Part shown: positions 3,947 through 44,118 of the stretch, piece by piece
How positions within the stretch are numbered: position 1 is the first letter of the stretch
Layout of the letters: each line of letters starts with the position of its first letter
Source of the DNA: Chthonomonadales bacterium
Lineage (GTDB): Bacteria; Armatimonadota; Chthonomonadetes; Chthonomonadales; CAJBBX01
Assembly (NCBI GenBank): GCA_012517255.1
Contig: JAAYVH010000168.1
Span: 1-44,118, forward strand
Length of the DNA stretch: 44,118 nucleotides
Direction: 5' to 3'
Translations under genes and position numbers: made by a program
Notes under the pieces: generated by a model
Database searches by the model: none
The model's input: the letters and a program-made list of their open reading frames with translations, nothing else
Told to the model about the DNA's origin: nothing

Positions 3947-5254
3947 TCAGACATCCTGCAGCCGCCCCGCGAGGAAGTTCTCGTAACTGGTCAGGTCGAG
4001 CATCCCGTGCCCGCTCAGCCCGAACAGGATGACCTTCTTCTGTCCGGCCTCGCGGGCCGCGATAGCCTCGTCCATCGCAACCGCGACGGCATGAGCCGAC
4101 TCCGGCGCAGGCACAATGCCCTCGGTCCTCGCGAAGGTAACAGCCGAGTCGAAGACATGAGTCTGGGGCACCGCGACCGCATCAATGAGCCCGAGCTTGT
4201 GCGCATGGCTCACCATCGGAGCCATGCCATGGTACCGAAGCCCGCCGGCATGGATCGGCGGCGGCATGAACTCGTGCCCGAGAGTCTTCATCATCATGAG
4301 CGGTGTCATGCCCGCAGTGTCGCCGAAGTCATAGCGCAGATCGCCGCGCGTCATGGACGGGCAGGCCGTTGGCTCGACCGCCACGATCTTGTATGATGCC
4401 TTGCCAGCCAGCTTCTTCTCAACGAACGGGAAAGCCAACCCCGCGAAGTTGCTGCCGCCGCCAACACAGCCGATGATGATATCGGGCTCCGGTCCGGCCA
4501 TCTCCATCTGCTCTAGAGCCTCAAGGCCGATCACGGTCTGGTGCAGGATCACGTGGTTCAGCACGCTGCCGAGCGAGTACTTCGTGCCCGGCGTCTTCAC
4601 CGTGTCCTCGATGGCCTCGCTGATGGCGATGCCAAGGCTGCCGGCGCACTCCGGATCCTGCTCGCGAACACGCCGACCAAACTCGGTCTGGTCGCTCGGG
4701 CTTGCGAACACCTCGGCGCCCCACGTCTGCATCATGAGCTTGCGGTACGGCTTCTGCTCGAAGCTCACCTTCACCATGTAGACGCGGCACTCCAGGCCAA
4801 ACAGGCTGCAGGCGAGCGCGAGGGAGGAGCCCCACTGACCGGCTCCGGTCTCCGTCGCAAGCCGCTTGGTGCCGGCGATCTTGTTGTAGTAAGCTTGCGC
4901 AACGGCCGTGTTGGGTTTGTGGCTACCGCCCGGACTGACGCCCTCGTACTTGTAATAGATCTGAGCCGGAGTCTGCAGATGTCGCTCCAAACGCACAGCG
5001 CGAAGGAGCGGCGTCGGCCGCCAGAGCGCAAGCACTTCACGCACGGGATCGGGGATCTCGACCCAGCGCTCGGGTGTGACCTCCTGCATCACCAGGTTCT
5101 CAGGGAAAATGGCGGTCAGGTCGTCCGGCCCCGCAGGCAAACGGGTAGCCGGATGAAGTGGCGGCGGAATCGGCTCAGGCATATCGGCGTTCAGGTTGTA
5201 CCAGGCCTTCGGTATTCGGTCGGATGGGAGCAAGAAGGAGGTGGGCTCGCTCAT
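3947..5254 (-). CDS. trpB: TrpB-like pyridoxal-phosphate-dependent protein (TrpB2 type tryptophan synthase beta)
   Basis: [24 protein letters not shown] (PLP lysine), [28 protein letters not shown]; long N-terminus typical of TrpB2. Confidence 0.93.
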
Positions 5255-5290
5255 AATGCACTCGTCCTCAGTGAAGTGGAATGTGGCGCG

Positions 5291-5320
5291 ATTATAGCCT
5301 TAAGTTCGATCGAGGGTCAA
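5291..5320 (-). promoter_or_regulatory. Sigma70-like promoter for trpB2
   Basis: On minus strand TTGACC (5320-5315), 18 bp spacer, TATAAT (5296-5291). Confidence 0.6.
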
Positions 5321-5381
5321 ATCGCGGGTGGGCCCGTCCTCTGGTACACTGAACCGCGCCCGTCATCTCGGCGAAGGGAGC

Positions 5382-7361
5382 ATGCAGTCACTGCAGCCTA
5401 GCACCAACGACAATCAGCCGGCGACTTCCGTGCTGCGCCACATCCGAGCGCAGCATCCTGCTGCGCCATTCCTGGCCCTGGGTCAGACCGTATGGTGGGA
5501 CGAGCCCATGAAGGCCGTCCTCCGCGTGTTGCTCGATGAGGCTGACATCGGCGGTCATATGGTGCTCGGCGTTCATGACACAGACTACTTCGCCAAAGCC
5601 CACACGCGCCTGTCCGGCGACAAGCGATTCGAGCTGCTTCCGCATAACGATGGCGCCACCAAGGACCTGTGGTCCGCTGCGGGCGAGATCTCCGCGCTCT
5701 TTGGGAGCGAGTGTTTCCCCACCCGTCATACTTTCACACGTCATGGGATTCCGTTCAATCTGGTGGCGGCGAAGCACGGCGAACGGCGACAGGCATTCAT
5801 TGACGAGGTCACGTGCGCATGGGGCTGGCGTGGTCTCGTGTACACCGCAGCCACCGACACCATCGTAAGCGAACTCAGACTCCGGGATGTTGCGCCCGGC
5901 ATCCGCCATATGCTCGAATGGGGCTTTGACGGCACAGTGGACGCCATCGATTCGCCCGACGTGCGAGAGCAAGCCCAGAGAATCGGCGCCGACCTGATCG
6001 CCGAATGCTGCGAGGGCTGCCGATCCCATCCCGAGGCGACGCTGACGCACCTCTACCAGCGCATGTACCCGCGGCTCCTGTCCCTCGTGATGGGCCGTTC
6101 CATGCACGATTACAGCGTAACCAGCACGTCGGAGCTCCTCAGGTTCGCTCCGGACACATGCCATAGGCCGCGCTTTGGATTTGTGGATCTGTTCCTGAAT
6201 CCTGCAACGCGTCGCCTTGCTGCCGATGCATATAACGACGCCGTCTCGGGCAGCGACATCTATACGCTGGACAAGTTCGGGCTCGGCGCGCTGCCGTTCG
6301 ACCTTGTCGTACCTGGACACGGGCGGGGCACACTGCGTGTTACGCTGCGCGCCGTTCACATCGAGACGCGCAACCCCATTCGCATACGGCTGGAACGCCC
6401 CATCGAGTCGGTAGCCGACCTGGCCGCAGTTCTCACGCGGCATCTCGGAAGCGATCTTGTGCTCGTTGGCAAGGCCGTGGCGCTGATCTCGATGCTGGCA
6501 CGCGAGTTCGTCTTCGTCTTCAACGAGGCAGGTTCGCTCTACGTTCACCGAACCCGAGAGATGAACAACGCGCTTCGTTCCCGCGGCGTATCGGTGCCCG
6601 CCTATCCCATCGTACGCTTGCACTACCAGACATGGGACTCTGCCGCAGAGGTGGACACAGTCGTCAGACTGCCGGAGCCGTTCCGCATACCATTCGGTGC
6701 ACAGGCCCTGCCGATGTCCACCGTCGCGTCGCGATGGCGCGCAGTGTCTCAGGAACAGCAACAACTCCTCGACGAGCTGGCCGACATCCGAAGTACCCGC
6801 GCCCTCCTAACATTCCTTGAGCAGCGTGAGCCGACGCGATGGATACGCAGTCGTGACGAGTACGATCGTCTCCTGGCCGAGCTACGGGCCGCTCACGATG
6901 CGACGCAATCCCTGGCGCGCGAAACTGCGGATCTCCATGCCGAGTTGCGTCAGATCAAAGCCGAGCTGCCGCGCCGAGAGGCGGAGAAGAGCGCGCACTT
7001 CCGGAGCGTCAAAGACTGGAATGCTGAGGAACGCAACCGACGGGCCGCGCTCAGCGGCGCTGTGACCAGCCTGCTCGAGCGTCGCCGCACCATCCTGCGA
7101 AGGTTGCGTGACCTGCGAGCCATGCGCCGCAACGCCGAACGATCCGATGCAGTTATCGGCATCCGGAACCGACTGCGCGAGATAACGCTACAAGCTGAAG
7201 AGGCCCGCCTGCGCATCGTGCGAGACGCGATCCTCGTGACCGAAGGGATGGAACACACCGACCACAGGCCGACGGCATGGTGGCTCCCCATGGTGGATCC
7301 CTCTGGCGCGTGGTTCAGGCGCATCGTCGAGACGACCCGAGCCTACCTCGAACCTCTGTAG
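5382..7361 (+). CDS. Conserved-looking hypothetical protein, 659 aa, with C-terminal coiled coil
   Basis: ATG at 5382 preceded by GAAGGGAG; N-terminal PFLALGQTVWWDEPMKAVL; Arg/Glu-rich coiled-coil C-terminus; no family recognised. Confidence 0.75.
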   Translation: MQSLQPSTNDNQPATSVLRHIRAQHPAAPFLALGQTVWWDEPMKAVLRVLLDEADIGGHMVLGVHDTDYFAKAHTRLSGDKRFELLPHNDGATKDLWSAAGEISALFGSECFPTRHTFTRHGIPFNLVAAKHGERRQAFIDEVTCAWGWRGLVYTAATDTIVSELRLRDVAPGIRHMLEWGFDGTVDAIDSPDVREQAQRIGADLIAECCEGCRSHPEATLTHLYQRMYPRLLSLVMGRSMHDYSVTSTSELLRFAPDTCHRPRFGFVDLFLNPATRRLAADAYNDAVSGSDIYTLDKFGLGALPFDLVVPGHGRGTLRVTLRAVHIETRNPIRIRLERPIESVADLAAVLTRHLGSDLVLVGKAVALISMLAREFVFVFNEAGSLYVHRTREMNNALRSRGVSVPAYPIVRLHYQTWDSAAEVDTVVRLPEPFRIPFGAQALPMSTVASRWRAVSQEQQQLLDELADIRSTRALLTFLEQREPTRWIRSRDEYDRLLAELRAAHDATQSLARETADLHAELRQIKAELPRREAEKSAHFRSVKDWNAEERNRRAALSGAVTSLLERRRTILRRLRDLRAMRRNAERSDAVIGIRNRLREITLQAEEARLRIVRDAILVTEGMEHTDHRPTAWWLPMVDPSGAWFRRIVETTRAYLEPL

Positions 7362-10459: not shown

Positions 10460-12912
10460 TAGGTCGCCTCCATCGCCGTGGTAAGGAGGTAGTGGACGCC
10501 CGCGACGACCACCACGACCTCTTCCACCGTGCACGGGCCCGTCGAAGCCAACTGACGCGCGTGGTCGAGCATCTCGCCGACCGGCCCCCAGTGGCGCGGG
10601 ATCTTCGCCAGTATCTCGCCCGCACGGCTGAGATCGCCCTCGCCGAAGGCCTCCGCCGCCGACTGCGCCAGTTTGCTTCGGCGTCTCCATCCGAAGTCGG
10701 TATCGTCCTTACGGCGCACGCCCAACTCCCGTATCATCCGCACGACGGCGAGGTCCTGATCCATCGCCCCGGAGGCAAGAACGCGGTACACACGCTGATC
10801 GCCAAGCAACACGCCGATTGCACTGGCGATCTGCTTGCGGGCCACATCATTCGTCGTGGCCCGCAGGCTGGCGTACATTGCAGGTAAAGCGGATACGCGT
10901 CCGGTGGCCGCAAGGGCGAACGCGCCATGCACGAGCACCGTGGGATCTGCCTCCTTGCGATATGCGGCTTCCACGCTGCCTCCAACGCTCGCGTCCCCGA
11001 GCTCGCCGATAGCGTCATAGACTGCGCTCCTGATGCCCCGCTGCTCATGGGTCAGCAGGTCGACCAGGCGCATGGCAGTCTCGTGATCGCCGCAGTGGCC
11101 GAGGGCCTCGACGAACGTTTGCGCCTCGTCCCACTCGCGCCGCTCCAGAGCCCGCTCCAGCGCCACGGTCAGATCATGCGCACGGGCGCGATCCCCGATC
11201 CTCGCCAGAGCGCGCGCCGCCGCCCCGCGCATTTCGCTGTTATCGGAGTCGAGCAATCTCGCAAGATGCGCCGATGACTCGGGTCCGCCGATCCGACCCA
11301 ACGCCTCGGCTGCTTCGAGCGCCACCGAGGGGGATGGATCCTCGAGTCGCTCGACCAGTGCTCGCACAGCGCTCGCGTCACCGATCTCTCCGAGCGCTCG
11401 GGCGGCCTCGCGCCTAACGCGGTGGCTCGGATCGTTCAATGCCTGCGTCAGCTCCTGCACAGCGAGGGACAGCCGGGAGGCGCTCAGGGCATTCACGGCC
11501 TTCCGGCGCTCCGTCTCGGTCTGCCCACGCTGCAGCCGTTGCATCTGAATGAGACTCGACACACGGACGGCGCCGAGCTGGCCAAGTACCTCCGATGCGC
11601 TGGCAGCGCTCGACGCTGGCAGAGCCCGAACCAGCGGCAGGGTTACGATCCTGGTGACGGCATTGATCGCGAAGAGCATGTGATAGGCGTTCATGCTGAC
11701 CCCTAGAACCGAGACGGGATGCTGCCGCAGGCCCTCGATGATCAGACCGCCGGCGATGGGAGCCAGCCCGCCTGCGAGCCCCGTGATCGCCGACAGAGCT
11801 CCCACATAGACGCTTCGGCCTTCGGATGGCGTGGCCTCTATCACGACGTTGAACTGCAGCAGTCCGACTCCCGCCCACATCACGCCGCCCATAAGGTTGC
11901 CCAGTATCAGGATGACCAGCGTGGTCACCATCGCGTCAGGACGAGCCGCAACCCATGGCAGTGGCGCCGCTGACACACCGACCACGGCGATGATGAGAAG
12001 CGGCCGATTGCCGAACCGGTCCGCTAGATACCCCCACAGAGGCATGGAGGCCAGCGCCGCCAGCGATGCCGCCGCGCCCAGCACCTGCAACCACATGTAG
12101 GACAACTTGAGTTCCTGCAGAGCGTACACGGTGTAGAACGGCGCCGCGAGGAACTGCCCCACGGCAAACAGGCCGCCGAACCACAGCACCTTCCGGAAAC
12201 CTGCATCCCTGAGCGGGGCGCGGTAGGCCGCCAACATTCCGGAAGCTCCGTGCGCCCCTTCGTGAAGGACCTTGGCCATCGGAGGCTCGGGAGTGCGCAA
12301 CAGCAGCGCGAAGCTGATCAGCCCAAACACCACTGCCACGCCGAACAGCACCGCGAATCCTGCAGGCTCCGACACCCACCCCCTGGCAACGGCACGATCA
12401 AGGAACCACGCGGGGGGCAGCGACGCTGCCATGGTGGTGAGGCCGGCGAGCATGTTCCTCCGCCCGAAGTAGCGCCCCCGATGGTCGGCCGGCACGAGAT
12501 CAGACAGCCAGGATGTGAAGGCTGGCACAGGAACCTGTATGGCGACGCTCGAAAGCGTCAGCAGGACCACAAAGCCAATCAGGCGCAGCTCGCCTGACAG
12601 AACCCAGGGCAGAAGCAGGATCGGGAGCCAGAGCGTTCTGGCGATCAGAGAGAACCACGCCGTGAGCGCCTTGCGCTCGCCCAGGCGTTCGACCAACAGC
12701 GATGAGCCGAGCTGTACAAGTGCCGCTATCGTTGGCACGGCCCCGATGACACCCATCCAGAAGCTGCTGGCGCCGAGCCATAGCGCGAAACCGGTCTGAA
12801 ACGCGCCGCCTGTCAGGGAGACATGGACCGTTGCCGCGACTGCCTCCAGGTTCGAGAGCTTCAGCGCCCGCAACGTCTCGAGGCGCGTCAGCGGCCGTCT
12901 GTCAGCGCCCAT
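10459..12912 (-). CDS. MFS transporter fused to C-terminal HEAT-like (PBS-lyase type) repeats
   Basis: Multiple TM segments, SWLSDLVPADHRGRYFGRRNML MFS loop; C-terminal repeats such as HRVRREAARALGEIGDASAVRALVERLEDPSPSVALEAAEALGRIGG. Confidence 0.88.
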   Translation of the reverse strand: MGADRRPLTRLETLRALKLSNLEAVAATVHVSLTGGAFQTGFALWLGASSFWMGVIGAVPTIAALVQLGSSLLVERLGERKALTAWFSLIARTLWLPILLLPWVLSGELRLIGFVVLLTLSSVAIQVPVPAFTSWLSDLVPADHRGRYFGRRNMLAGLTTMAASLPPAWFLDRAVARGWVSEPAGFAVLFGVAVVFGLISFALLLRTPEPPMAKVLHEGAHGASGMLAAYRAPLRDAGFRKVLWFGGLFAVGQFLAAPFYTVYALQELKLSYMWLQVLGAAASLAALASMPLWGYLADRFGNRPLLIIAVVGVSAAPLPWVAARPDAMVTTLVILILGNLMGGVMWAGVGLLQFNVVIEATPSEGRSVYVGALSAITGLAGGLAPIAGGLIIEGLRQHPVSVLGVSMNAYHMLFAINAVTRIVTLPLVRALPASSAASASEVLGQLGAVRVSSLIQMQRLQRGQTETERRKAVNALSASRLSLAVQELTQALNDPSHRVRREAARALGEIGDASAVRALVERLEDPSPSVALEAAEALGRIGGPESSAHLARLLDSDNSEMRGAAARALARIGDRARAHDLTVALERALERREWDEAQTFVEALGHCGDHETAMRLVDLLTHEQRGIRSAVYDAIGELGDASVGGSVEAAYRKEADPTVLVHGAFALAATGRVSALPAMYASLRATTNDVARKQIASAIGVLLGDQRVYRVLASGAMDQDLAVVRMIRELGVRRKDDTDFGWRRRSKLAQSAAEAFGEGDLSRAGEILAKIPRHWGPVGEMLDHARQLASTGPCTVEEVVVVVAGVHYLLTTAMEAT

Positions 12913-40318: not shown

Positions 40319-40390
40319 GCGGGAATAGCTCAGTGGTAGAGCATCTGCTTCCCAAGCAGAGGGCCGCGGGTTCGAATCCCGTTTCCCGCT
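40319..40390 (+). tRNA. tRNA-Gly (anticodon CCC)
   Basis: GCGGGAA acceptor pairs with TTCCCGC + T discriminator; anticodon loop TTCCCAA in CTGC/GCAG stem; T-arm GCGGGTTCGAATCCCGT; CCA not encoded. Confidence 0.97.
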
Positions 40391-40484
40391 CAAATCAAAC
40401 AGAAGCCAGGCTAACGTTGAGCTCAAACTGAGCTTCTGCCTGTTGTCCGGGCCGCCCCTCCCCCCGCCCAATAGGAGGGACGGA

Positions 40485-41444
40485 ATGAAGAACTGTCAAT
40501 CTGCCTCGCAGGTTCAAATCCCTGCGGCCCTTGTGCGCGACTCCCTCTTGCGGGCCGTCCAGGGATGGCTGCTCTCCGGTGAAATCGCCGGATGGTCCCG
40601 CAAAACCCTCGACGATCGCTGCATCTGGATGGGCCGACTCCGCCAGTACCTCGACGCCAACGACCTCGCCTTCGACGTCAACGGCCTCCGAGCCTACTTC
40701 GCCGCCTACCAGAAAGGCCGCGACGGAAGATCCGTCCGTCCGCCCAAACCCGCATCCGTCAAACACGTCCATTCGCTCGTATCAGCCTTCGGCTCATGGT
40801 GCGTCCAGGAAGAACTCCTCGAAGCCAACCCCATGAAGCGCATACCCGCACCCATCATCCGCGACGACGGCATCGAGCCCTACACCGACGCCGAACTGAA
40901 CGCACTCCTGCGCGCCGCCGCCAACTGCCAGAAAAACGGCCTCCGCAACACCGCCATACTCCACTTCCTCGCCGACACAGCCGTCCGAGCAAGCGAACTC
41001 TGCGCCATGACCGTCGACGACGTCAACTTCACCGACCGAACCGCCCACGTCCGTTGCGGCAAAGGCGGCAAGGCACGCATCGTCGCATTCGGCAAGACCA
41101 CCGCCAACGTCCTCTCTCGATACCTGCTCAACACCGCCCGCGATCCCGAAGATCCACTCTTCATGTCCGAACGCGGCGGACCCATGACCCCCGGCAGCCT
41201 CTTCCAGCTCTGCAAACGCCTCGGCAAGGCCGCCGGCGTCCGGGGCGTCCATCCCCATCGCTTCCGCCACGACGCCGCCGTCCGCCTCCTCCGCAATGGC
41301 GCTCACGCCTTCGGTGTCATGAGCCTCCTCGGACATACCCGAATACAGACCACCCAGGTCTACGTCAAACTCGCCGAAGCCGACGTCAAAGACATGCACC
41401 GCACCGCCAGCCCCATGGACAACCTCAACAAAAAGGGAAGATGA
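40485..41444 (+). CDS. Tyrosine recombinase/integrase
   Basis: AGGAGG RBS at 40472-40477; catalytic residues in DTAVRASELCAM (R), HPHRFRHDAAV (HxxR), LLGHTRIQTTQVYVKL (H, Y). Confidence 0.96.
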   Translation: MKNCQSASQVQIPAALVRDSLLRAVQGWLLSGEIAGWSRKTLDDRCIWMGRLRQYLDANDLAFDVNGLRAYFAAYQKGRDGRSVRPPKPASVKHVHSLVSAFGSWCVQEELLEANPMKRIPAPIIRDDGIEPYTDAELNALLRAAANCQKNGLRNTAILHFLADTAVRASELCAMTVDDVNFTDRTAHVRCGKGGKARIVAFGKTTANVLSRYLLNTARDPEDPLFMSERGGPMTPGSLFQLCKRLGKAAGVRGVHPHRFRHDAAVRLLRNGAHAFGVMSLLGHTRIQTTQVYVKLAEADVKDMHRTASPMDNLNKKGR

Positions 41445-41468
41445 GCATCGAGACCCCGACGACAGCCG

Positions 41469-42380
41469 CTAGCCGGACGCGGCCCCACACGCCTTACGCG
41501 CCCGGCATTGCCGAACCCGCTCCCTGCTCTCGACCTCGCGGCACTCCTCGCAGTACGCCGCCCCGCCAGACCGGTTGGGCGCCCGTCGCCGCTCGTGGAG
41601 ACGCCCGCACCGGGTGCACGGGTGCCACCGATCGGCCCCCAGCACGAACCAGATCAAACACGAGACGAGATAGCCCCACAGCGCACTCGGACGGAGCGCG
41701 CAGTAGGCTTCGGTACTCCCGTCCGGCTTCACCCGCATCTTGACCTGCCGGTAGCCCGCGTCATAGGCCCGAACCGCGTCCGCGTCAAGGCTGGGCCCGG
41801 TCCCGATTCTATATCTGTCGCCATCCCAGACGACCCACGGCTGCAGCCCGGCCTCGGCCGCTAACCGGCTCAACTGGACGCCTAGCATAACGCAACGCTC
41901 ACGCCAGTCAGGCAAGGGATCGCCGTCTTCCAGACGGATCCCGACGCCCCGAAGCTCCCGAGCCGAAAGCGTCCCCCGATTTCGCAGGGACCAGGCCGCG
42001 TCACGCAACAGACGCACCTCTTCGGCGAGTCCTACGTACACCTCAACCGGCTCCCGCCAGACCTCCCCGTCCCCCTCCTCCACACGCTCCGGCCTCCGGC
42101 GCAGGGCGCCGTAGCGCCGCACGAACGCCGCTGCGTCCTCGCCCGTCTTGATCTCGACGAAGCGCCCCAGGGCATCCGTCTCCTTGGACAGGTCCCTCGA
42201 GCACAACCTCCCCCGTTTGGCCCTCATTCGCCGCTCCCCTTCCTTCCCCAGCCCTATCGCCAAGGCCCCGTCCTTCCACTCGATCCAGTCGCCCACGACC
42301 CGCACCTCCTCGGGCACTATTGAGAAAACCGAAAGCCCACCGGTCTGTAACGGCGCCATGCGCGCGCGTCGTTTTCTCAT
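41469..42380 (-). CDS. Element-encoded protein of unknown function with C-terminal zinc-ribbon-like cysteines
   Basis: ATG at 42380 preceded by GGAGGG; C-terminus HPCTRCGRLHERRRAPNRSGGAAYCEECREVESRERVRQCRARK. Confidence 0.75.
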   Translation of the reverse strand: MRKRRARMAPLQTGGLSVFSIVPEEVRVVGDWIEWKDGALAIGLGKEGERRMRAKRGRLCSRDLSKETDALGRFVEIKTGEDAAAFVRRYGALRRRPERVEEGDGEVWREPVEVYVGLAEEVRLLRDAAWSLRNRGTLSARELRGVGIRLEDGDPLPDWRERCVMLGVQLSRLAAEAGLQPWVVWDGDRYRIGTGPSLDADAVRAYDAGYRQVKMRVKPDGSTEAYCALRPSALWGYLVSCLIWFVLGADRWHPCTRCGRLHERRRAPNRSGGAAYCEECREVESRERVRQCRARKACGAASG

Positions 42381-42424
42381 CTCATTCCCTCCCCGCCCGG
42401 TCCGCACCCGGGCTCGACCAAGTA

Positions 42425-42448
42425 TGTAACGCCTTCTGTAACGCGTTA
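42425..42448. promoter_or_regulatory. Candidate operator in the divergent intergenic region of the element
   Basis: Direct repeats TGTAACGC at 42425-42432 and 42437-42444 (12-nt period); perfect palindrome TAACGCGTTA 42439-42448. Confidence 0.45.
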
Positions 42449-42513
42449 GCTGTTGCATGAGCATACCCCAGGCATGTACGATGGAGACCACCATGATTCC
42501 AGGAGTGATAGAC

Positions 42514-42717
42514 ATGAACGTCCGACATCCCGCACGGATGAAGCGCTTCCTGCTTCAACTGCCAGAGGCGACGCTGAAAGCAATCCGCGTGGAAGCCCGC
42601 AAACGCGGCGCACGCTCCCGGGCCGAGGCCATCAGAAGCCTCATCGCCGATGGATTCGCGTTCAGGAAGTGGGTCGAAACCCCCGATGTCGAACCCGATC
42701 CGCCGTCTGCGAACTGA
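42514..42717 (+). CDS. Ribbon-helix-helix (Arc/CopG-like) DNA-binding protein
   Basis: AGGAG RBS at 42500-42504; KRFLLQLPEATLKAIRVEARKRGARSRAEAIRSLIADGF fits the RHH fold. Confidence 0.75.
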   Translation: MNVRHPARMKRFLLQLPEATLKAIRVEARKRGARSRAEAIRSLIADGFAFRKWVETPDVEPDPPSAN

Positions 42718-43102
42718 ACGCGGCCTCTCAGTCCGCCACATCGCCAATGCCGTCGGGTGCTCCAGCGGCCACATCTATGCCCTGGAACGCGCAGACGCGG
42801 CGCTCACGCTCCCGATGGCACGAAAGCTCGCGGCGATCCTCGACGTCCCGATCCAGAAACTCATCAACGGGCGGCCCGGACCATCCAAGCCCGGAGCCCG
42901 GCGCGGGCGGCGCCGGCGCTCCATGAAGATCGGAGATATCGTCGAGATCGCCGCGGGCGACTTCGCCGGCATCCGCGGCGTCGTCGACAAACCGCCGGAC
43001 GAACGCCCCAACCCCGGCCAGATCGGCGTTCGCGCCATCGGCCCCGTCGGCTCAGGCTCCTACGAGCCCGCCTGCGTCATTCATTGGGAACCCGAACCAT
43101 GA
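42686..43102 (+). CDS. XRE-family HTH protein with C-terminal KOW-like segment
   Basis: MSNPIRRLRTERGLSVRHIANAVGCSSGHIYALERADAALTLPMARKLAAILDVPIQKLI; C-terminal MKIGDIVEIAAGDFAGIRGVV. Confidence 0.8.
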   Translation: MSNPIRRLRTERGLSVRHIANAVGCSSGHIYALERADAALTLPMARKLAAILDVPIQKLINGRPGPSKPGARRGRRRRSMKIGDIVEIAAGDFAGIRGVVDKPPDERPNPGQIGVRAIGPVGSGSYEPACVIHWEPEP

Positions 43103-44118
43103 CCGCCTCCGACCTCGCCCAGCGCCTCCAAGCCCGTCCCTCCGGCAACGGATGGACAGCCCGCTGCCCGGCACATCCCGACCGCGCTCCCAGCCTCTCG
43201 ATCTCCCAGGCCGACAACGGACGCATCCTCCTCCACTGTCACGCCGGATGCACGCCGGAGGCCGTCTGCAGCGCCATCGGCATAGCCCTGCGCGACCTCA
43301 TGCCCCCCGGAGACCCCGCAGGCCACAACGGCGCCGGCCCACGCATCGTCGCAACCTACGAGTACACCGACGAGCAAGGCCGACTGCTCTACGAGGTCGT
43401 CAGAATGGACCCCAAGGCGTTCCGCCAGCGCAGGCCCGACGGCCACGGCGGCCACGTCTGGGACATGAAGGGCGTCCGTCGCGTCCTCTACCGTCTGCCA
43501 GCCGTCCTCGACGCCGTCCGCCACCGCAAGCCCGTGTGGATCGTCGAAGGCGAGAAAGACGCCGACGCCCTCGCCACCATCGGCCTCTGCGCAACCACCA
43601 ACTCCGGCGGCGCGGGAAAGTGGCTCCCCGACGCTGCCGAAACCCTCCGCCAGGCCCACGTCGTGGTCATGCCCGACAACGACGACCCGGGCCGCGCCCA
43701 CGCCGACATCGTCGCCAACGCCCTTCACGGCATCGCCGCGTCCGTCCGCATCCTCGCCCTGCCAGACCTCCCGCCCAAAGGCGACGTGTCCGACTGGCTC
43801 AGCGGCAAAGACCCGCAGGCCGCCGCTGCCGAACTCCGAAAACTGGCCAGAGCGACGCCCATCTTCAGCCCGACCGCCAGACCAGCCCCCCGCGAGCGAC
43901 CGATCCCGGTCTCCGAGGTACCCATCCGTCGCATCGAGTGGCTGTGGCCCGCCCGTCTCGCGCGCGGCGAAATCACCGAAATATGCGGCGACCCGGGACT
44001 CGGCAAGTCCATGCTCGGCGTGGAGATCGCGGCCCTCCTGTCCCGCGGCGCCCCATGGCCCGACGGCACACATCCGCCGGAGCCCGTGTCAACCATGCTC
44101 CTCAGCGCCGAAGACGAC
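43099..44118 (+). CDS. Primase/helicase-like replication protein (CHC2-type zinc finger, TOPRIM, RepA-like AAA ATPase), truncated by the window end
   Basis: Open frame to the last base, absent from the ORF track because it has no stop; CPAHPDRAPSLSIS...LLHCHAGC, VWIVEGEKDADAL (TOPRIM), EITEICGDPGLGKSMLGVEIAALL (Walker A); ATGA overlap with upstream gene. Confidence 0.9.
   Translation, partial: MTASDLAQRLQARPSGNGWTARCPAHPDRAPSLSISQADNGRILLHCHAGCTPEAVCSAIGIALRDLMPPGDPAGHNGAGPRIVATYEYTDEQGRLLYEVVRMDPKAFRQRRPDGHGGHVWDMKGVRRVLYRLPAVLDAVRHRKPVWIVEGEKDADALATIGLCATTNSGGAGKWLPDAAETLRQAHVVVMPDNDDPGRAHADIVANALHGIAASVRILALPDLPPKGDVSDWLSGKDPQAAAAELRKLARATPIFSPTARPAPRERPIPVSEVPIRRIEWLWPARLARGEITEICGDPGLGKSMLGVEIAALLSRGAPWPDGTHPPEPVSTMLLSAEDD

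Follow-up and report, generated by a model that had tools for sequence, protein, structure and literature searches.

A bounded, probably helper-dependent integrative element of about 10.3 kb at tRNA-Gly(CCC) in an Armatimonadota genome

The window analyzed here is a stretch of 44,118 nucleotides that makes up the whole of contig C2 in a 327-contig Armatimonadota MAG (G000). Its right end holds the left third of an integrative element of roughly 10.3 kb, bounded at both ends, the remainder of which lies on contig C95 of the same genome. Very probably, this is a complete tyrosine-integrase element residing in the 3′ half of tRNA-Gly(CCC), which probably replicates by itself and is most likely moved by a helper, in the manner of a satellite or an IME. 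The kind of element is already known, since hitchhiking elements without transfer genes of their own are common (PMC11389934). The hitchhiker lifestyle is, however, little described in Armatimonadota; a literature search on mobile elements of this phylum found little, and both the element and its Armatimonadota family appear to be undescribed in the literature searched, which is a part of all literature. Being ordinary in kind, the element draws its interest from the phylum, from an orphan gene and from the hot spot that it occupies. With its own ends defined, an unoccupied site and a decayed copy in related genomes, and relatives that are bounded in turn, it provides a concrete test case for the spread of small elements lacking transfer genes in a phylum of which few members have been cultured.

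The left end is defined by the tRNA gene and by the integrase beside it (Table 1). The initial annotation had placed the integrase about 94 bp beyond tRNA-Gly(CCC), and this holds, with an ATG at 40485 preceded by AGGAGG and located 93 nt from the tRNA end. It had also proposed that a repeat of the tRNA 3′ end would mark the other attachment site, and such a copy is indeed present at the far end of the element, on C95. The match between attL and attR was absent from all shuffled sequence in a shuffling control, and at the attR position of C95 there is no complete tRNA but only its 3′ half. The tRNA 3′ half now found in the window was probably brought by the element, because at the one base that separates attL from attR, attR carries the G that most relatives with an empty site have at this position, while attL carries another base. 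Tested as att sites, the tRNA-like matches on C251, C105 and C319 of the same genome were rejected, as they are complete tRNA genes.

Just inside the two ends lie the palindromes TTGAGCTCAAA and TTTGAGCTCAAA, the latter one base longer. The 44-kb window has no other match to the former, and 20 kb of C95 no second site of the latter kind (expected number 0.00 in each case), and a variant, TTTGAGATCAAA, occupies the corresponding place in the sister element of genome G001. These palindromes are likely candidates for integrase arm sites. Close to the right boundary, 54-bp tandem repeats were also observed immediately before attR (C95:6041-6263).

Table 1. Features of the element and of three related elements (window coordinates unless a contig is named)
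Feature	Position	Strand	Details
tRNA-Gly(CCC)	40319..40391	+	integration target; ARAGORN
attL core, 49 bp	40344..40392	+	DNA search of own genome
TTGAGCTCAAA palindrome	40417..40427	.	candidate integrase arm site
Tyrosine recombinase (integrase)	40485..41444	+	Pfam PF00589 (Phage_integrase) 4e-37; phrog_1 6e-48
Orphan protein	41469..42380	-	303 aa (348 aa from 42515); C-terminal Cys4 zinc-ribbon-like motif
RHH (CopG-type) DNA-binding protein	42514..42717	+	PF01402 (RHH_1) 1.6e-5
XRE-type regulator with C-terminal extension	42686..43102	+	PF01381 (HTH_3) 3.9e-8
Primase-helicase (Toprim-like + AAA_25), N-terminal part	43099..44118	+	first 340 residues; AAA_25 1.1e-12, weak Toprim
Primase-helicase, rest	G000:C95:2-961		after about 17 missing nt
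TubC_N protein	C95:965-1198
orf94, orf193, orf384	C95		without family
DUF6804 protein	C95		Pfam
HicA + HicB	C95, about 5480-5931	-	near right end
TTTGAGCTCAAA	C95:6490-6501
attR copy	G000:C95:6510-6558		48/49 identical (98%) to window 40344-40392
L045	tRNA-Gly(TCC)		5.8 kb; RHH, XRE, DnaB_N-AAA_25 helicase, two further small ORFs
L046	G000:C298:6776-11750, tRNA-Gln		4.9 kb, complete; RHH-like gene, AAA_25
L043	G010:C39, tRNA-Asp		9.9 kb; lone tail tape-measure gene (PF20155 3e-13)

Relatives show what the site looks like when it is empty. Five genomes of the same family (G002, G003, G004, G006 and G008) carry a complete tRNA-Gly(CCC) before a gene for an M16 peptidase, with no integrase between them; the two genes are about 0.8 kb apart in G006. 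In the host, the M16 peptidase gene lies beyond attR on C95 and is followed by a dapB-like gene (both named by eye from translations). Moreover, a GC-rich, terminator-like hairpin that follows the tRNA in most empty-site relatives is found in the host directly past attR, and thus the element has separated the tRNA from its hairpin. To judge from the sequences compared, the element belongs among the tRNA-targeting integrative elements: its integrase lies beside a tRNA 3′ end, direct repeats flank it, and relatives have an empty site. The tRNA 3′ half that it carries evidently keeps the tRNA whole.

In the sister species G001, the same tRNA bears a decayed version of 3.0 kb with integrase, DUF6804, HicAB and an attR of its own. 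Its integrase, 84% identical to that of the window, has one in-frame TGA. Both the left end (integrase, 85% identity at the DNA level) and the right end (HicAB and the attR flank, 87-89%) are located on one contig, running from tRNA-Gly(CCC) to attR. The M16 gene of G001 lies about 16 kb further on, and the host chromosome has therefore been rearranged there too. The roughly 15 kb in between (G001:C34, 4728-20000) look chromosomal, with genes that were assigned by eye as PQQ-repeat, dprA, sod and glmS, among others.

The initial annotation had reasoned that identical gene content in all relatives would speak against an integrative element. The site proved to be empty in five relatives, to hold the 3.0-kb version in G001, and to hold unrelated genes of restriction type in G010 and G011, both of which have a partial tRNA-Gly 3′ end before M16. 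The tRNA-Gly(CCC)/M16 locus is thus an integration hot spot that receives restriction-type genes too. The set in G010, beside the partial tRNA, consists of a C5 DNA methyltransferase, a GHKL ATPase, Z1 and DUF4420 (PD-(D/E)XK-like), and no integrase was seen there. It is spread over two contigs (C99 and C1) whose link is tentative, because the overlap between their ends amounts to just 12 bp, inside the gene for the methyltransferase. In G011 (C116:1-3453), a ResIII-type helicase and a DUF559-type endonuclease-like gene precede the partial tRNA-Gly 3′ end.

The gene content of the left part agrees with the initial annotation in its main lines. The catalytic R/K/H..R/H/Y columns are invariant across the members of the integrase family, and RHH and XRE regulators followed by a primase-helicase were recovered as had been claimed. 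PADLOC matches of the XRE protein were dismissed as generic HTH. For the supposed zinc-ribbon protein, the reverse-strand gene stands, with GC by codon position of 0.70/0.54/0.81 across 41469-42515, the pattern of a genuine gene; the label “Zn-ribbon” has as its sole basis a CxxC...CxxC motif read at the C-terminus of the translation. This orphan matched nothing in the profile libraries Pfam, PHROGs, NCBIfam and PADLOC. Nor did a relative turn up among 250 further genomes of the phylum or in collections of viral contigs, genome contigs, plasmids and phages, although a negative pattern-based scan excludes close relatives only. A single-sequence AlphaFold model reached a pLDDT of only 38 and was unusable. 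Another reading frame, overlapping the end of the integrase gene by ATGA (41441-41743), resembled iolg of the PICMIs in position but was discounted: GC by codon position of 0.63/0.83/0.65 is not that of coding DNA, and the frame runs antisense to the orphan.

Small plasmids encode relatives of the primase-helicase, as do phages, in which the annotation reads primase-helicase; related proteins of Arthrobacter phages show 32-34% identity. At the 3′ end of its gene, 42-bp tandem repeats were observed (C95:712-953), which may serve as an origin or may simply be repeats in coding sequence. Further to the right follow a TubC_N protein, four mostly unknown cargo ORFs (orf94, orf193, orf384 and the DUF6804 gene) and HicAB.

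The initial annotation had left the choice between a phage, a satellite and an ICE. The complete gene list lends no support to a self-sufficient phage or to an ICE, while a satellite-like or helper-dependent element fits best. Capsid, portal, terminase, tail or packaging genes were not recognized between the att sites among the main ORFs of both parts (Pfam; PHROGs, covering those other than orf94, DUF6804 and HicAB; NCBIfam, covering those other than TubC_N, DUF6804 and HicAB). Relaxase, coupling protein and T4SS genes were likewise not recognized in the Pfam and NCBIfam scans of these ORFs, so that the search for capsid or conjugation genes that had been advised came back empty. Temperate phages and cryptic prophages share with the element tRNA integration, an integrase, an XRE-type regulator and a primase-helicase, but the element has no recognized structural or packaging gene between its att sites.

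Among described systems, a general account of phage satellites (PMC13376191) gives 7-20 kb, an integrase, regulators, replication genes and no structural genes, between att sites; the element fits this on every point visible in its sequence. PICMIs of Vibrionaceae, whose model comprises int, AlpA and a primase of the DUF3987/DUF5906 type and whose insertion site is next to fis, are similarly small and carry an integrase, a regulator and a replication gene, no capsid genes, and an unknown gene beside int (PMC10803314). The element differs in having a Toprim/AAA_25 primase-helicase, no AlpA/HTH_17 match among its proteins in Pfam, and tRNA-Gly(CCC) rather than fis as its target. Membership of the PICMIs as defined in that work is excluded, because AlpA is absent and the target site is different. 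Tycheposons of Prochlorococcus are described in PMC10872708 as tRNA-bordered cargo carriers of 4-200 kb with a tyrosine recombinase. On these general features, the element is alike in its tRNA border, recombinase and cargo, but it resides in another host phylum and has no recognized metabolic cargo. With IMEs (PMC5704250), it shares an integrated, excisable layout and, presumably, helper-dependent transfer, but it has no recognized relaxase.

The insertion with its restoring repeat, the gene content, the empty site and the decay of the sister copy can be read from the DNA itself, and the following steps are proposed around them. The integrase, encoded beside attL, would recombine a tRNA-identical attP with tRNA-Gly(CCC). 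Excision would be performed by the same enzyme, with RHH/XRE or the orphan protein possibly acting as a directionality or control factor, and the RHH and XRE proteins are likely to exert control. The excised circle would probably be copied by the Toprim/AAA_25 primase-helicase of the element, and HicAB near the right end probably favors retention. The least certain step is transfer: the element probably hitchhikes between cells, because it has no recognizable particle or conjugation genes, and the route would most likely be a helper, through phage packaging as a satellite or mobilization in trans.

A narrower reading is that of a strict phage satellite packaged by a helper phage. It is possible, although held with less than even confidence. 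Size and layout match those of phage satellites as described in PMC13376191 and those of PICMIs (PMC10803314), phages and phage-like contigs contain numerous relatives of the helicase, and a single tape-measure gene lies within the att boundaries of the related element L043. However, AlpA, TerS and capsid-interference genes were not recognized in the element (Pfam, PHROGs, NCBIfam), there is no known helper, and the tape-measure gene belongs to another element.

Somewhat unlikely is an integrative mobilizable element or integrated plasmid that is conjugated in trans through an unrecognized oriT. HicAB is common on plasmids, and the N-terminal part of the helicase also matches plasmids, 48 of 122 being predicted mobilizable, but the Pfam and NCBIfam scans detected no relaxase or coupling protein. 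That the element is a fixed island which has lost its mobility seems unlikely. The 3.0-kb remnant in G001, with its in-frame TGA in the integrase, does mean that decay occurs at the tRNA-Gly(CCC) site; in the window, by contrast, the integrase frame is open with catalytic residues kept, the att sites are identical in 48 of 49 positions, and both helicase halves are open. The broader reading, a helper-moved element that probably replicates by itself, remains preferred.

Related integrases were drawn from relatives and genome contigs, and 28 distinct Armatimonadota loci were inspected. In about 20 of them, the integrase is located a short way (mostly <200 bp) 3′ of a tRNA and in the same direction, the tRNAs used being Gly, Asp, Gln, Leu, Val, Ala, Pro, Ile and Glu. 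Three further elements that begin in the same manner are bounded by att repeats (L045, L046 and L043; Table 1). The int-RHH-XRE-helicase layout recurs, while the orphan gene was found solely in the window element among the collections searched. A far-reaching interpretation would see in the window element, L043, L045, L046 and contig C112 of G000 a family of phage satellites 5-10 kb in size, anchored at tRNAs, typical of the phylum and so far undescribed. Its defining traits would be integrases of one retargeting clade, regulators of the RHH and XRE types and an AAA_25 helicase whose N-terminal part is exchangeable (Toprim primase, DnaB-N or other), and the orphan would be a new helper-interaction or excision factor; taken as a whole, this satellite-family reading is improbable. 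L043 also contains a second tyrosine recombinase which, with the tape-measure gene, spans 5387-7171; at 11655 lies another tRNA-Asp 3′ end, which points the opposite way. On contig C233 of G000 (4037-6313), a related integrase at tRNA-Asp(GTC) is followed by a Macro-domain protein.

The extent of the window element depends on the joining of C2 and C95. The initial annotation recognized that the window edge cuts the element, and as the window is the whole of contig C2, the cut at 44118 is an assembly end. C95 begins within the very primase-helicase gene that is interrupted there: in the AAA_25 profile (Pfam), the window end accounts for positions 16-83 and the opening of C95 for positions 90-194, and a single intact ORF on C112 is matched by the two halves alike. 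Alignment with the helicases of C112 and L045 indicates that exactly 6 codons (about 17 nt) are missing between the contigs, which gives an element length of 3727 + 17 + 6557 = about 10.3 kb. Since the intervening bases are missing from the assembly, the link is an inference from homology, albeit a strong one. That C2 and C95 are the ends of two distinct elements joined by resemblance only, as their lack of connection in the assembly and further related elements or genes in G000 (C298, C233, C112) might suggest, is highly improbable, given that one ORF accommodates both halves with 6 aa missing, that the att repeat of C95 derives from the tRNA-Gly(CCC) of the window, that this tRNA precedes M16 in relatives, that G001 has both element ends together, and that G000 offers no other partner half save the intact C112 gene. 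Contig C112 itself (3424 bp) carries this gene, for a 700-aa AAA_25 helicase, along with a small HTH gene, and is possibly a piece of another element.
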